Part shown: in pieces, positions 11,274 through 48,418 of the stretch
Numbering within the stretch: position 1 is the stretch's first letter
How the letters are laid out: every line of letters begins with the position of its first letter
Notes under the pieces: model-generated
The model's database searches: none
What the model saw: only the letters and a program-made list of their open reading frames with translations
Told to the model about the DNA's origin: nothing
Made by a program: the position numbers and the translations under genes
Assembly: GCA_019973575.1 (NCBI GenBank)
Contig: BPUI01000001.1
Location: 1,252,342 to 1,316,341 of the forward strand
DNA from: Gemmatimonadetes bacterium T265
GTDB taxonomy: Bacteria; Gemmatimonadota; Gemmatimonadetes; Gemmatimonadales; Gemmatimonadaceae
Direction: 5' to 3'
DNA: 64,000 bases

Positions 11274-11616
11274 GGGACGGGGGCTTTGGGGGGGGGGCCG
11301 CACACGCAGGCGATACCCCGCGGCCCGGCCGCCGCTCGCGTCACCTGGGCGCGGGAGTGCGGACGGCGGACCCGCCGAACATACACCAGCCCAAGCCGTC
11401 GTCACGTATCGGGGATCGACGGTAACAACCTGTCTCAGAACCTGTTTCACCACGCGCCCTATCATGCGCCCACGCGTGCCCGCGGCCGACCGCACGCGAC
11501 CGCGCGTCCGTCGCCCACATCTCGGCGTCCCGCCCGTAAACGACGACGCCCGCGCGAGTTAGGCGCGGGCGGACGCGGTCACGTGCGGTGGGGCGCGGTC
11601 GGCGGGCGGGAACCGT
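11274..11616. other. Intergenic stretch with G10 run
   Basis: No gene recognised between lysE and the tRNA fragment. It holds a run of ten G (11288-11297) and a small direct repeat AACCTGT/AACCTGT near 11429-11447. Sequence from about 11400 to 11470 is less GC-rich than its surroundings, possibly foreign. Confidence 0.4.
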
Positions 11617-11659
11617 ACGGATTTTCAGTCCGCTGCTCTACCAACTGAGCTACCTAGCC
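11617..11659 (-). tRNA. 5' fragment of tRNA-Phe (GAA anticodon), pseudo-tRNA
   Basis: The minus strand shows acceptor 5' strand GGCTAGG, TA, D-arm GCTC-AGTTGGTA-GAGC, then a perfect anticodon arm GCGGA-CTGAAAA-TCCGT with anticodon GAA. After the anticodon stem the sequence diverges: there is no variable loop plus T-arm with a 5-bp stem and no CCTAGCC acceptor partner or CCA. So about 43 nt of the 5' half remain. A sigma70-like promoter is still present upstream (11774-11803). Not a functional tRNA as it stands. Confidence 0.7.
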
Positions 11660-15690: not shown

Positions 15691-16457
15691 GCGATGAACG
15701 CGCCGATCACGCGGGCGAGATCCGCGGGCGCCTCGACCGGCACGAGGTGCCCGACGTGCGGGACGTCGACCATGCGCGCGCCGGCGACGCGGTCCCGCAC
15801 CTCGCGCTCGAGCATCGCGTGCGCCATCACGGGGTCCTCCCCGCCCGCGACGACGAGCGTGGGCACGTTCACGCGCGGCGCCAGCGCCGCGAGGTCCTCG
15901 CGGCTCCCCTCCCGCATCCACGCGTCCCACGCGGGGCGCGACGTGCGCAGGCTGTCGGCGACGATCTGGTCGAACGCGGCCGGGGCGAGCGGGCGCATCG
16001 TGATCCGGCGCGCCGTCTCGACCGCGGCCGCGCGGTCGCCGTAGGTGGCGAGCGTGCGCGCCCGGCTCGCCTCGGTCATCGGCTCCGGCGTCGGGGGCGA
16101 GGGCGCGACGAGGACGAGCCCCGCGAGCCCGGCCGGCCGCCGCGCCGCGAGCGCCAGCGCGACCTTGCCGCCCATCGAGTGCCCGACGAGCACGTACGGG
16201 CCGGACGAGCCATCCAGCCCGAGCCCGAGGACTAACGCCGCGACGTCGTCGGCGGAGTCGCCGACCGTGTAGCCGGTGGGCGGCGCCGGCGAGTCGCCGA
16301 AGCCACGCAGGTCGGCGGCGACGCAGCGGTGGCGCGGCGCGAGCGCGGCGACCACCGCGTCCCAGGCGCGCGACGACCCGGCGTAGTAGTGCAGGAAGAC
16401 GAGCGCCGGACTGCCGGCCCCGGCCTCGGACCGGTGCAGCGCGACCGGCGCACTCAC
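15687..16457 (-). CDS. Alpha/beta-fold hydrolase
   Basis: 256 residues from GTG 16457, overlapping the queF stop. The oxyanion region LVFLHYYAGSSRAWD, the nucleophile elbow VLVGHSMGGKVAL (GHSMG), the acid in LVVAGGEDPVM and the histidine in DVPHVGHLVPVE are all present. Length is that of a simple esterase/epoxide-hydrolase-like member. Cytosolic, substrate unknown. Coupling to queF is conserved-looking (4-nt overlap) but the link with queuosine synthesis is not obvious. Confidence 0.92.
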   Translation of the reverse strand: MSAPVALHRSEAGAGSPALVFLHYYAGSSRAWDAVVAALAPRHRCVAADLRGFGDSPAPPTGYTVGDSADDVAALVLGLGLDGSSGPYVLVGHSMGGKVALALAARRPAGLAGLVLVAPSPPTPEPMTEASRARTLATYGDRAAAVETARRITMRPLAPAAFDQIVADSLRTSRPAWDAWMREGSREDLAALAPRVNVPTLVVAGGEDPVMAHAMLEREVRDRVAGARMVDVPHVGHLVPVEAPADLARVIGAFIA

Positions 16458-16885
16458 CGACGCGCGGTACTCGTCGGCGGCAGCACGGCGGGCAGCTCCG
16501 CCCCGACCCGCGCGGTGATGACCGACTTGATCCCGCCGCGCACGGCGAAGTCCCCCACCACCTCCATCGCCTTCGGCTCGACCGCCGCCGCGAGGTCGTC
16601 GAGGATCCGGTTCACCGCGCGCTCGTAGAACACGCCGTCGTTCCGAAAGCTCCAGAGATAGAGCTTCAACGATTTGAGTTCCACGCACTTCGCCGCCGGG
16701 ACGTAGCGGATGTGGATCGTCGCGAAGTCGGGGGCCCCGCCCTCGAGCGCGCGCAGGTCGGTGGCGTCCCCTTCGATCCCGCCGAGCGGGCAGAGCGAGG
16801 TGAACTCGGGGCACTCCATCCGGACGTCGTAGTCGCGGTCGGGGTACGGGTTGGCGAAGGTTTCGAGCAGTTCGGGCTTGGGCAT
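16454..16885 (-). CDS. queF: NADPH-dependent 7-cyano-7-deazaguanine reductase QueF
   Basis: 143 residues from ATG 16885. It reduces preQ0 to preQ1 in the queuosine tRNA pathway, in the cytosol. The catalytic cysteine lies in EFTSLCPLGG (Cys about 32), followed by DFATIHIRYVPAAKCVELKSLKLYLWSFRN, which contains the family's E-S-K-S-L-K-L-Y-L substrate motif in the form ELKSLKLYL, and HE-type region YERAVNRILDDL. It is the short, unimodular form. A longer upstream reading to 17008 would enter the CGCTGTTG repeat array and is rejected. First gene of an overlapping operon. Confidence 0.95.
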   Translation of the reverse strand: MPKPELLETFANPYPDRDYDVRMECPEFTSLCPLGGIEGDATDLRALEGGAPDFATIHIRYVPAAKCVELKSLKLYLWSFRNDGVFYERAVNRILDDLAAAVEPKAMEVVGDFAVRGGIKSVITARVGAELPAVLPPTSTARR

Positions 16886-16930
16886 GTCGGAAAACGAACG
16901 GAAGGACAGGCGAACTCGCGGCGCGGGCCG

Positions 16931-17161
16931 TTGGTGGGGCGGGTGGGACCGCGCGGTTGGTGCGGCGCTGTTGATCTGGCGCTGTTGGTGAAACGCTGTT
17001 GATACCACGCTGTTGGAACGGCGGGGTACGACCAGGGCGGCGCCGCGGCCCGGGTACTCCTCCTCTACCGCCGTCTCAACAGCGCCCTATCAACAGCGCC
17101 GCACCAACAGCATCCCACCAACCGCGCGGTATCAACCGCGCGGTCCCACCCGCCCCACCAA
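16931..17161. repeat. Inverted array of CGCTGTTG units with 29-bp perfect outer arms (locus A)
   Basis: The left half has four CGCTGTTG units at 14-15 bp spacing (16976-17020); the right half has CAACAGCG units in reverse orientation (about 17082-17112). Outer arms 16931-16959 and 17133-17161 are perfect reverse complements over 29 bp. The centre (about 17022-17080) does not pair obviously. The whole can fold into one long hairpin. It lies between the rhomboid gene stop and the queF start, both on the minus strand. A second array of the same kind lies at 45924-46117. Confidence 0.9.
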
Positions 17162-17181
17162 GAGCGCCCCGACCGCGCCCG

Positions 17182-18474
17182 CTACTGCCCCCGCAGCTTC
17201 TTCGCCGTCTCGTCGAGCAGCTGCCGCTCCTCGCCGGTGAGACTCTCGATCCCCGTCGCCGAGATCTTATCGAGCAGCCGGTCGAGCGTGTCCGCGCGCG
17301 ACCCGGCGGCCCCGACCCCCGCGACCGGCGTCGCGACCCGGCGCGGAGGCCGCGGCGGCACCGCACTTGGTGGTCCCCCCGTGGACGGTAGGGCGCCGCT
17401 CGGCCCCGGCGTACCCGGCGCCCCACCGCTCGACGTGCCGCGGGCCGGCGTTCCCGGCGGCAACACGGGCGGCGGCGCGCTCGGCGGGGCCGTGCCCGCA
17501 GGCGGGACCGCCGGCGGGACCGCGCCGCCGGTCGTCGGCGGCGCGGTCGGTGGCGTGGCGTCCGGCGGGGTGGCGGCCGGTGGCATGGCAGGCGGGCGTG
17601 GGGTCGACGGCCGGGGCGCCGGGGCCGGCGGGCGCGCGGTCAGGGCGCGACTCTGCTCCACGGCCTGGTCGGCCGCGCTCCCGCGCTCGCGCACCTGGCC
17701 GTCCCGCCCGCGGGCGTCGCGCCCGTCGCGGTCGCGCGGCGCGCCGCGCGGCACCGCGCGCGGCAGCCCGTCGACGATGTCCGGCGCGGGCGCGACGCGC
17801 TGGCGCAGCCGGTCCACGTCGGGCGCGGCGGGGCGGAACAGCCAGAGTGCCGCGAACACGAACCCGCCGAGGTGCGCGAGGTGCGCCGTCCCGCCCATCG
17901 CGGAGCCCGGCGCGACGTCGAGCACCCCCATCACGAGGTTGATCGCGGCCAGGAACGCCACGAGCCACCACACCTTCATCGGCACGACGCCGAAGAAGAG
18001 CGCCTCGTCGTCCGGCCAGCGCAGCGCGTAGGCGAGCAGGACGCCGAAGATCGCCGCCGACGCGCCGACGAGCAGCGAGGGCCCGCGCGTGAACACCGCG
18101 TGCGCCGCCGCCCCGCCGAGCCCGCACCAGACGTAGAACGCGGCGAACGCCTTCGTCCCCCACGCCCGCTCCAGCCGCGGCCCGAACACCCACAGCGTGT
18201 ACAGGTTGAGCGCCAGGTGCCAGAACCCGGCGTGCACGAACATGTACGTGAACGCCGTCCACCACGCGCCGCCCAGCGGCGCAGCCGTCGCCGCCACCGT
18301 CCCGCCCGCGAAGCCGAGCAGCTCGGGCAGGTCGCGCTGCACGGTGAGCTGCAGGAACGCGACCGCGACGTTGGCCACGACGAGCCAGAGCACGGCCGGC
18401 GGTACCGCCTGTCCGGAGCGGGGCAGGCCGGCGTCCCCGCCGGTCGGGTCGTAAGGCGTGACGTAGGACGACAT
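17182..18474 (-). CDS. Rhomboid family intramembrane serine protease with long Pro/Ala-rich tail
   Basis: 430 residues from ATG 18474. Residues about 25-210 form six TM helices with WWTAFTYMFVHAGFWHLALNLYTLWVFG, catalytic serine in LVGASAAIFG (Ser139) and histidine in TAHLAHLGG (His201). Residues 225-385 are low-complexity Pro, Ala, Gly and Thr. The last 40 residues (DRLLDKISATGIESLTGEER then LLDETAKKL) are the helical tail often labelled DUF6576 in bacterial rhomboids. It should cleave membrane protein substrates at the inner membrane. The Pro-rich linker may tether a partner (inference). Confidence 0.93.
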   Translation of the reverse strand: MSSYVTPYDPTGGDAGLPRSGQAVPPAVLWLVVANVAVAFLQLTVQRDLPELLGFAGGTVAATAAPLGGAWWTAFTYMFVHAGFWHLALNLYTLWVFGPRLERAWGTKAFAAFYVWCGLGGAAAHAVFTRGPSLLVGASAAIFGVLLAYALRWPDDEALFFGVVPMKVWWLVAFLAAINLVMGVLDVAPGSAMGGTAHLAHLGGFVFAALWLFRPAAPDVDRLRQRVAPAPDIVDGLPRAVPRGAPRDRDGRDARGRDGQVRERGSAADQAVEQSRALTARPPAPAPRPSTPRPPAMPPAATPPDATPPTAPPTTGGAVPPAVPPAGTAPPSAPPPVLPPGTPARGTSSGGAPGTPGPSGALPSTGGPPSAVPPRPPRRVATPVAGVGAAGSRADTLDRLLDKISATGIESLTGEERQLLDETAKKLRGQ

Positions 18475-23862: not shown

Positions 23863-23990
23863 GTCATCCTGAGCGCAGCGAAGGACCTTGCGTGCGCACT
23901 CGGGAGCGGCGTGCCGTTAGGCCGACGCCGACGCGTCCCGTACGGCTCCTCCGCGAGGAGCACGAGATCCTTCGCTGCGCTCAGGATGAC
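23863..23990. repeat. Dispersed inverted repeat of the TCATCCTGAGCG...AAGGA type
   Basis: GTCATCCTGAGCGCAGCGAA (23863-) and its near reverse complement ATCCTTCGCTGCGCTCAGGA ending near 23990 bracket about 80 bp. The arm sequence is a repeat widely seen in intergenic DNA of several bacterial phyla, often in pairs facing each other. A partial third copy (CATCCTGAG) begins at 23849. It lies between convergent M30 and glutaminyl cyclase genes. Confidence 0.75.
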
Positions 23991-44504: not shown

Positions 44505-45881
44505 GTGACACGCGCGCCCGGCCGGAGCAACGGTGCGAGCCCTCGCCCCGCGGCGGTCCTCGCCGCGGCGCTGGCCGCCACTGCGTGCGCCCTCGCGGCG
44601 TTGCCGTCGGTCGCGCACGCGCACCCGGGGCTCGCGCCCGCGCCGCACGACCTCTGGCGGGCATGGCCGGCGAGCCCCGGCGTGGTCGCCGGGCTCGCGC
44701 TCGCGGGCGCCTGGTACGCGCTCGGCGTCCGCCGCGCGTGGCGGCGCGCTGGCGCCGGGCGCGGCGTGGCGCGGTGGCGCGCCTGGGCCTACGCCGCGGG
44801 GCTCGCGGCGATCGCCGTCGCACTCCTCACGCCGCTCGACGCCGTGTCCGACGCGCTCTTCACGGCGCACATGGGGCAGCACCTCCTGCTGATCCTCGTC
44901 GCGGCCCCGCTGCTCGCGGCGGGCGTGCCCGCGCTCGGGATGCTCTGGGCGCTCCCCGAGCGCGCGCGCCGGCGCGCGGGGCGGGCCTGGGCGGCGCGGC
45001 CGCGGCTGCGGGCCGGGCTCGCCCTGCTCGTCGCGCCCGGCGTCGCCGCCTCGCTGCACGTGGGGAGCGTGCTCGTCTGGCACCTGCCGGCCCCCTATGA
45101 CTGGGCGCTCCGCCGGCCCGCGGTGCACGCGCTCGAGCACGTCACCTTGTTAGGCGCGGCGGCGCTCTTCTGGTGGCCGGTCGTCCGCCCCGCGCCGCGG
45201 CGTGGCGCGCGCCGCTTCGGCGACGGCGCGCAGCTCCTCTATGTGGCCGCTGCCGGCGTGCCGATGGGACTCCTCGGCGCGGCGCTCACCTTCGCCGCGC
45301 GCCCGTGGTACGCGGGGCACTACGGCACGACCGCCGCGTGGGGGCTCACGCCGCTCGAGGACCAGCAGCTCGCGGGCGTGGTGATGTGGGTACCGGCGGG
45401 GCTCGTCTACCTCGGCGCGGCGAGCGCGCTGTTCGTGCGCTGGCTGCGCGGCGCCGAGCGCGGGGCGGACGACGCCCGCGCGGCGCGCCGGGGGGCGGCG
45501 GCGGCCTGGTCGCTCGCGGCCGTGTGCGTCGCCGCGGCGTGCGCCGCCTCGGTCACCGCGTGCGACGACACCGGCGGCGCGCCGTTCCGTGCGGTCGACG
45601 GCGGCGACCCGGGGCGCGGCGCGCGCGCCCTCGGCGCCTACGGCTGCGGGGCCTGTCACGAGATCCCCGGCGTCGCCGGGGCGTACGGGGCTGCCGGGCC
45701 GCCGCTCACCGCGTTCGGGCGGCGGACCTCGGTCGCCGGGGTGCTGCCGAACACCGCCGACGACCTCGTGCGCTGGATCGAACGGCCGCAGCGCGTGTTG
45801 CCCGGCAACGCGATGCCGGACCTCGGCGTAACCGACCGCGAGGCGCGGGATATGGCGGCGTATCTCTATACTCTGCACTAG
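44505..45881 (+). CDS. CtaG-type cytochrome oxidase assembly protein fused to cytochrome c
   Basis: 458 residues from GTG 44505. A signal-like segment, then about seven TM helices of the caa3_CtaG family (DALFTAHMGQHLLLILVAAP, HVGSVLVWHLPAPYDWAL, HALEHVTLLGAAALFWWPVV, GLTPLEDQQLAGVVMWVP). After the last TM a C-terminal cytochrome c domain has haem motif CGACH near residue 380 and distal Met in NAMPDLGV. CtaG proteins deliver copper to the oxidase; the fused haem domain may pass electrons. First gene of a set with Rieske and cytochrome b; no oxidase subunit is seen here. Confidence 0.9.
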   Translation: MTRAPGRSNGASPRPAAVLAAALAATACALAALPSVAHAHPGLAPAPHDLWRAWPASPGVVAGLALAGAWYALGVRRAWRRAGAGRGVARWRAWAYAAGLAAIAVALLTPLDAVSDALFTAHMGQHLLLILVAAPLLAAGVPALGMLWALPERARRRAGRAWAARPRLRAGLALLVAPGVAASLHVGSVLVWHLPAPYDWALRRPAVHALEHVTLLGAAALFWWPVVRPAPRRGARRFGDGAQLLYVAAAGVPMGLLGAALTFAARPWYAGHYGTTAAWGLTPLEDQQLAGVVMWVPAGLVYLGAASALFVRWLRGAERGADDARAARRGAAAAWSLAAVCVAAACAASVTACDDTGGAPFRAVDGGDPGRGARALGAYGCGACHEIPGVAGAYGAAGPPLTAFGRRTSVAGVLPNTADDLVRWIERPQRVLPGNAMPDLGVTDREARDMAAYLYTLH

Positions 45882-45923: not shown

Positions 45924-46117
45924 CGCTGTTGGTCGGGCGCTGTTGATGCGACGCTGCTGACGCGGCGCTGTTGGTGAAACGCTGTTGGAACGGCGGGTTG
46001 ACGGACCCGAGCCGTAGCGCCCGGATCTTGGTGCCCCTGCCCTTCCGCCATTTCAACAGCGCCGTTCCAACAGCGTTTTACCAACAGCGCCTGACCAACA
46101 GCGCCCGACCAACAGCG
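45924..46117. repeat. Inverted array of CGCTGTTG units (locus B)
   Basis: Left half: CGCTGTTG (once CGCTGCTG) repeated five times at 14-15 bp spacing (45924-45993). Right half: CAACAGCG five times in reverse orientation (about 46052-46117). Outer arms 45924-45945 and 46096-46117 are perfect reverse complements over 22 bp. It is the same architecture and unit as 16931-17161, in the gap between the CtaG and Rieske genes. Confidence 0.9.
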
Positions 46118-46189: not shown

Positions 46190-46729
46190 GTGTCCACCCC
46201 CCTCCCGGCCGCCCCGCCGCTCGCGGTACCCCGCGAGCCCGCCCCGACGCCCGAACGCCGGCGCTTCCTCGCCCGCGTCACCGCCGCGCTGGCCGGCCTC
46301 GCCGCGGCGGCGGTCGCCGTGCCCGCGGTGGGTTTTCTGCTCGCCCCCCTCGTCGGCCGGCCGACGCGCGCGTGGCGCGTGGTCGGCCGGGTCGACGACT
46401 TCGCGGTCGGCGAGACCGTGCGCGTCGCCTTCGACGACCCGGCGCCGCTCGCGTGGAGCGGCGCGGTCGGGCGGAGCGCGGCGTGGCTGCGGCGTACCGG
46501 CGCGGCGGAGTTCTCCGCGTTCGCCGTCGAGTGCACGCACCTCGGCTGCCCGGTGCGCTGGGTCGCGGGCGCGAAGCTCTTCATGTGCCCGTGCCACGGC
46601 GGCGTGTACTACGAGGACGGCGCCGTGGCCGCGGGCCCGCCGCCGCGGGCGCTGACGCGCTATCCGGTGCGCGTCGAGGGCGGGCGCGTGCTCGTCGGCG
46701 CGGGGCCGCTCCCGCTCACCCGCGCCTAA
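46190..46729 (+). CDS. Rieske 2Fe-2S protein
   Basis: 179 residues from GTG 46190; longer upstream readings enter the repeat array and are rejected. A single N-terminal TM anchor ([20 protein letters not shown]) after a Pro-rich start, then the Rieske fold with cluster ligands CTHLGC (Cys about 115, His 117) and CPCHGG (Cys about 133, His 136). It is the high-potential iron-sulfur subunit of a bc-type quinol oxidising complex. The cytochrome b gene follows 8 bp later. TAA stop inside a GCCTAAC heptamer. Confidence 0.94.
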
Positions 46730-48186: not shown

Positions 48187-48418
48187 GGCGTGGGTGGGCG
48201 GGCGCGCCAGATGGGCGCTTGCGGGCAGGTCGTTGGGGCGGTACCGGACCGGGCGGGGCAGAGCGACCGGGGCAAACGCACGGGGCGGGTACCGCGGCTG
48301 ACTGGACGACAGAAGTAGGGCCGGTCCCCGGCCATGCCCGACCCGGCCGCCGTTCCCGCTCCGTGCTGCCGCCTCGCGTCCTCCGCCCCGCCCGACCCGT
48401 CGCCCTCCCCGTCCCGCC

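Follow-up and report, generated by a model that had tools for sequence, protein, structure and literature searches.

The palindromic array at positions 16931–17161 of the window (the whole 64,000-nt stretch of DNA that was analysed) belongs to a dispersed family in the genome of the soil Gemmatimonadaceae bacterium T265, with a homologous family in a second genus, Gemmatirosa. With a probability of roughly one half, we regard it as a clade-specific, REP-like family of interspersed palindromes in which arrays of an 8-bp motif are read by a putative trans-acting factor. A related genus possesses its own version of the element with a different motif, which hints at a cellular reader of the motif. 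What is new here is that two genera share paired, near-fixed arrays built from a short motif, with a changed motif, an unchanged pitch, and without the known transposase. No description of the family was found in the partly covered literature on Gemmatimonadota repeats and long palindromes that was searched.

RAYT transposases and hairpin folding are the customary explanation for palindromic repeats in bacteria. The present family, without a Y1 transposase, keeps its motif and the exact spacing, not the pairing of the remaining bases. The two genera, in which the spacing is kept and the motifs are different, constitute a natural experiment on what sustains such elements, and Gemmatirosa kalamazoonensis, as a cultured species, offers a testable host for the family.

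Element A, the entire paired array plus its outer stem (16931–17161), ends in two 29-nt outer arms at 16931–16959 (+) and 17133–17161 (−), which are perfectly complementary to each other. The left arm (16952–17021, +) consists of five 14-bp units with 8-mers at 16952, 16966, 16980, 16994, and 17008, and the right arm (17077–17140, −) of five inverted units with 8-mers at 17077, 17091, 17105, 17119, and 17133. The units are of the CGCTGTTG type; the left-arm unit starting at 16952 is CGCGGTTG, and the left-arm hexamers are, in order, GTGCGG, ATCTGG, GTGAAA, ATACCA, and GAACGG. From innermost 8-mer to innermost 8-mer the apex (17016–17076) measures 61 nt, longer than the canonical apex, which is 37 nt in each of 10 other loci. 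The full arms of 94 nt are 82% complementary with a gap of 43 nt between them, and the palindrome score is 89.5, whereas the highest score among 2210 shuffled segments was 29.5. In the first-pass annotation, locus A had been described as units on one side and inverted units on the other, bracketed by perfect 29-bp arms, which was confirmed in each respect. The period was given there as 14–15 bp, but the pitch is exactly 14 bp.

Since the stop codon of a Rhomboid-family gene (17182–18474, −) lies 41 bp from the right edge of the array, A is situated at the 3' end of that gene; a QueF-like gene (16454–16885, −) starts 66 bp past the array. Element B (45924–46117) likewise has five plus five units, with its apex at 45988–46053. 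It follows the stop codon of a CtaG/cytochrome c gene (44505–45881, +) by 42 bp and precedes the start of a Rieske Fe-S gene (46190–46729, +) by 72 bp. Fifteen of the 16 occurrences of CGCTGTTG in the window were inside these two loci, and window shuffles contained 2.0 ± 1.5 occurrences (maximum 6). The only Rfam match in the window was a tRNA (11591–11659, strand −, 33.5 bits), for which ARAGORN gave no call.

Throughout the T265 genome, a two-unit pattern with at most one mismatch matched 139 times, and its reversed control not at all. All 79 matches of a three-unit pattern were on contig C1, and inspection of these places revealed 19 full elements as well as several half or split ones. A covariance model built from the 81-nt core of the element added four loci (C1:643941, C1:1039751, C1:2429219, and C3:220731). 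Pattern searches and covariance model together gave a total of about 28 loci, as expected for the dispersed palindromic family that had been proposed earlier; because so many exist, the idea that only the two loci of the window exist, which would have spoken against that proposal, fails in the genome search.

The number of units is nearly fixed and has a sharp edge. Counted outward from the innermost unit without requiring a match, 8-mer identity by frame was 7.8, 7.7, 7.4, 6.5, and 6.1, then 3.6 and 2.8 of 8 in T265, and 7.8, 7.8, 7.3, and 6.4, then 3.0 of 8 in Gemmatirosa. These sharp drops after frame five and frame four therefore define 5+5 and 4+4 units, respectively. Including the innermost 8-mers, the core was exactly 53 nt long in 10 of 19 T265 loci despite diverged sequence, and longer in loci A (77 nt) and B (82 nt). 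In Gemmatirosa, 11 of 20 loci had an element length of 114 bp. Overall, the elements range from 114 to 235 bp with 8–10 units, and many T265 copies carry an outer stem of the form GGTGGGGCGGG-N-GG-N-ACGG plus its complement.

The covariance model found 26 matches in genome G080, that of Gemmatirosa kalamazoonensis (plasmid NZ_CP007130.1 identical). Here, the unit consists of CGGCGCTG and six bases, repeated at a 14-bp pitch in two facing arms; the pitch is thus common to both genera, whereas the motif differs. The pattern GGCGCTG-N7-GGCGCTG had 179 matches in Gemmatirosa versus 3 for the control, and 35 versus 3 in T265. An unbiased 1.2-Mb sample of Gemmatirosa contained about 13 paired arrays, and therefore about 57 would be expected on the 5.3-Mb chromosome.

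Outside T265, the two-unit pattern yielded 0 to 3 matches in each of 394 other genomes of the phylum, about equal to the controls. For GGCGCTG-N7-GGCGCTG, almost every genome of the class apart from T265 and Gemmatirosa was at background; a few had up to 13 matches, which were, among the places listed, mostly one-strand runs of identical units. For the three-unit pattern, 37 stretches were obtained from the 84,980 species in genome_contigs, all of them one-strand tandem repeats without an inverted arm, and viral contigs gave no match. Neither the GCTGTTG repeats of genus g14, which have a 7-bp period, nor a tandem repeat in genome G294 are paired arrays. A genome of another genus in the same family (G393) contains small hairpins of the form GCTGTTGGAAC(T)GCG...GTTCCAACAGC followed by TTTT, which resemble the inner stem of the element. 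At L211:2435-2476 and L210:2068-2143, small hairpins of this genome have the form GCTGTTGGAACTGCGC...GCGCAGTTCCAACAGC followed by TTTT, and are a possible ancestor of the element.

In-register comparison between loci gave an agreement of 90% for the 8-mers and of 48% for the hexamers, close to the 46% of random hexamer pairs. Within a canonical locus, agreement between the two arms was no better (8-mers 92%, hexamers 49%), and in Gemmatirosa the hexamers of the arms agreed at 55% compared to 50% across loci (P = 0.09). As the loci were found via the motif, the apparent conservation of the 8-mers is inflated, but the sharp edges in unit number are not explained in this way. All 19 deviations within the 8-mers of Gemmatirosa were one-sided, as were 25 of 30 in T265. 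Mismatches showed no G-U bias on the transcribed strand (69 versus 59 in T265, 17 versus 14 in Gemmatirosa), and selection on an RNA fold was rejected on the basis of this test, which was negative in both genera. Conserved 8-mers, nearly free hexamers, mostly uncompensated changes, and the missing G-U bias together suggest that the motif is read rather than the fold, with conservation apparently acting on the motif sequence more than on the pairing of the hairpin. In T265, five 8-mer deviations were identical on both arms (0.96 expected). These, and the hexamers shared between arms that are described below, imply that arm pairing or arm copying also contributes there.

Most arrays start directly behind a stop codon, at a distance of 13–60 bp in T265 and mostly of 2–15 bp in Gemmatirosa. 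With both genera pooled, convergent gaps were enriched (14 of 50 arrays versus 97 of 834 baseline gaps, P = 0.003) and divergent gaps depleted (P = 0.013), and in 13 of 14 tandem cases in T265 the array abutted the upstream stop. As the genes were called by a purpose-made script based on codon usage, single cases of placement may be wrong. The stop codon TAG was frequent next to arrays (11 of 23 T265 gene ends versus 206 of 893 overall). One half-array of four units (L078:9176-9225) is intragenic: it is read in frame as part of an ABC-transporter gene, where it falls in the linker that joins the two ATPase domains; in relatives without the insert this linker is shorter or different, and is itself variable.

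For the family as a whole, the putative trans-acting factor would recognize the array in a sequence-specific manner. It could be a transposase-like enzyme responsible for the spread of the element, a DNA- or RNA-binding protein acting at gene ends, or both. If its preference shifted between the two genera, all copies in a genome would come to carry the same version. Where it lies at the 3' end of a single gene or of two, the element might also serve as a two-way boundary, protecting transcript ends or acting as a road-block to read-through; we give this part less weight. Such a 3'-boundary role is plausible, and the placement behind stop codons is equally expected from harmless insertion. In a more elaborate form, the arrays would be platforms on which a putative protein binds 8–10 motifs cooperatively at 14-bp spacing, forming the two-way boundary at gene ends, and a change in specificity would rewrite every site of a genome, so that the motif turns over and the spacing is conserved. 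We consider this form possible but doubtful.

If the element were a transcription terminator, or a hairpin at the 3' end of mRNAs, acting as an RNA fold and selected for base pairing, its position directly behind stop codons and its enrichment between convergent genes would be accounted for. Such a role would also suit the predicted fold energies of −118 to −245 kcal/mol and the resemblance of the inner stem to the TTTT-followed hairpins of G393. Against it, no intrinsic terminator (a GC stem followed by a T-run) was found in the window at 16700–17400, which leaves locus A without a T-run or terminator-like site. Moreover, hexamer pairing in canonical loci is at chance level, 8-mer changes are mostly uncompensated, mismatches lack the G-U bias, and only about 1% of genes carry the element. 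We therefore rate this explanation as rather unlikely.

The array could also have grown in place, with slippage multiplying the 14-bp units and template switching copying one arm into the other. Both processes had been suggested in the first-pass annotation. In any register, the arms of one locus shared 16 exact hexamers compared to 4.3 expected (P < 1/5000, the two commonest hexamers excluded). In a few T265 loci the arms are long and perfect or nearly so; those at C1:1080456 and 1676985 are near-perfect, with shared unusual units. Furthermore, between deviating loci with 9+6 (C1:1443634), 3+5, and 6+2 units the differences are multiples of 14. Neighbouring units, however, were no more alike than shuffled ones (lag 1, P = 0.77). 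Similarity was weak at lag 2 (P = 0.04), accompanied by an alternation of G and A at the first hexamer base (78 of 137 versus 64, P = 0.001). From the hexamer excess and the lack of extra likeness between neighbours, arm copying appears to occur in the T265 genome, and single-unit slippage appears not to be the general rule. The proposed copying of one arm thus holds at some loci; slippage may have added units at single loci such as the one with 9+6, but the near-fixed unit numbers speak against it as a general mechanism. As an explanation of the family, local growth is improbable, given that about 28 dispersed loci and another genus share one architecture.

Alternatively, the arrays might be MITEs of a conventional DNA transposase that is now inactive, with the units as its end-binding sites. 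The scatter of palindromic copies that share a core, and the insertion in the ABC-transporter linker, would fit this origin. The ends of Tn7- and Mu-like elements carry arrays of inverted binding sites, which offers a precedent. An autonomous copy, with a transposase enclosed by two arms, was not found, and the sole transposase in such a position belongs to an IS256/Mutator-family element (L070:12566-14105). It has inserted into an array's apex, has the 8-bp repeat TCCCGGCC on both sides, and is a visitor, not the driver of the family. Duplications flanking the arrays were not recognized either, and a MITE origin seems hardly likely.

A function of the arrays as sites for chromosome organization or segregation is very improbable: 27 of the 28 loci are on one contig (C1), which accounts for 53% of the assembly (P = 5e-7), but their distribution within it fits a uniform one (KS P = 0.16), and the Gemmatirosa elements are found all around the chromosome, with one on a 1.04-Mb plasmid. 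Clustering at the terminus was dismissed as well. Cumulative GC skew over 38 sampled stretches peaked near 1.75 Mb on C1, but dnaA is located at C1:1341436, a search for parS with up to two mismatches found none, and the distribution of the loci on C1 fits a uniform one.

The T265 genome also contains other very long imperfect palindromes of 270–395 bp, with a G-rich left and a C-rich right arm and without the units described here (L136:13006-13400, L128:13256-13578, L146:4684-5000, L130:17601-17901, L147:16868-17136, and L146:19069-19343). All of them sit between convergent genes. In the window, the convergent gap at 48187–48418 has a deep fold and a sequence resembling the family of the L128 palindrome. 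A second, mostly intergenic repeat family of the form GTCATCCTGAGCGCAGCGAAGGATC...GATCCTTCGCTGCGCTCAGGATGAC occurs at 23863–23990 of the window and at L145:5589-5703, L123:9278-9346, and L134:15772-15897.

Among known systems, these elements stand beside REPs and REPINs as extragenic palindromes in many copies. REPs lie close behind the 3' ends of ORFs, mostly between convergent or unidirectional genes (PMC3733652), and the arrays of T265 and Gemmatirosa resemble them in their position at 3' ends, enriched in convergent and depleted in divergent gaps. Occasional in-frame insertion into genes and doublets in inverted order are further features in common with REP, BIME, and REPIN sequences (PMC3733652, PMC3116915), as is the insertion of an IS into the palindrome, REP-targeting IS elements being known. 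In contrast, the units of those systems measure 20–40 bp, whereas elements of 114–235 bp with 8–10 units are found here, and conserved 8-mers recur at a fixed 14-bp pitch without a Y1/RAYT transposase. The search for a RAYT-type transposase suggested in the first-pass annotation was run with PF01797 and found none in the T265 and Gemmatirosa genomes, while control genomes were positive. A GTAG/CGTC tag at the foot of the stem was not seen by eye in the aligned copies. Without a Y1 transposase and a tag, and with a 14-bp instead of a 20–40-bp unit, membership in the RAYT/REPIN system was rejected, and the earlier statement that the array is not a usual REP was borne out. The exclusion of CRISPR proved equally sound, as the arrays have an 8-bp motif, 6-bp gaps, and inverted arms, versus repeats of about 21–40 bp, unique spacers of similar size, and cas genes.

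Long imperfect hairpins directly behind genes are also a feature of integron attC sites. The arrays differ from these in being single, scattered across megabases, and built of 8–10 repeated units, and RYYYAAC/GTTRRRY boxes are unrecognizable in them; an attC cassette cluster was rejected in view of 28 single loci over 2.6 Mb. According to IntegronFinder 2.0, the megareplicon of Gemmatirosa kalamazoonensis carries one of the largest non-chromosomal integron-like elements (PMC9024848). Rickettsial palindromic elements (named in PMC3733652) likewise include palindromic inserts in frame within protein genes; here, one of about 28 copies, a half-array, is intragenic. Pneumococcal BOX elements (PMC3049150) are similar in being dispersed composite repeats whose two ends enclose a tandem module, and in their predicted hairpins, but their boxB module number varies between elements and strains and is not mirrored in two arms. 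With MITEs, finally, the arrays have terminal inverted repeats in common, the whole element being an inverted repeat in this case.
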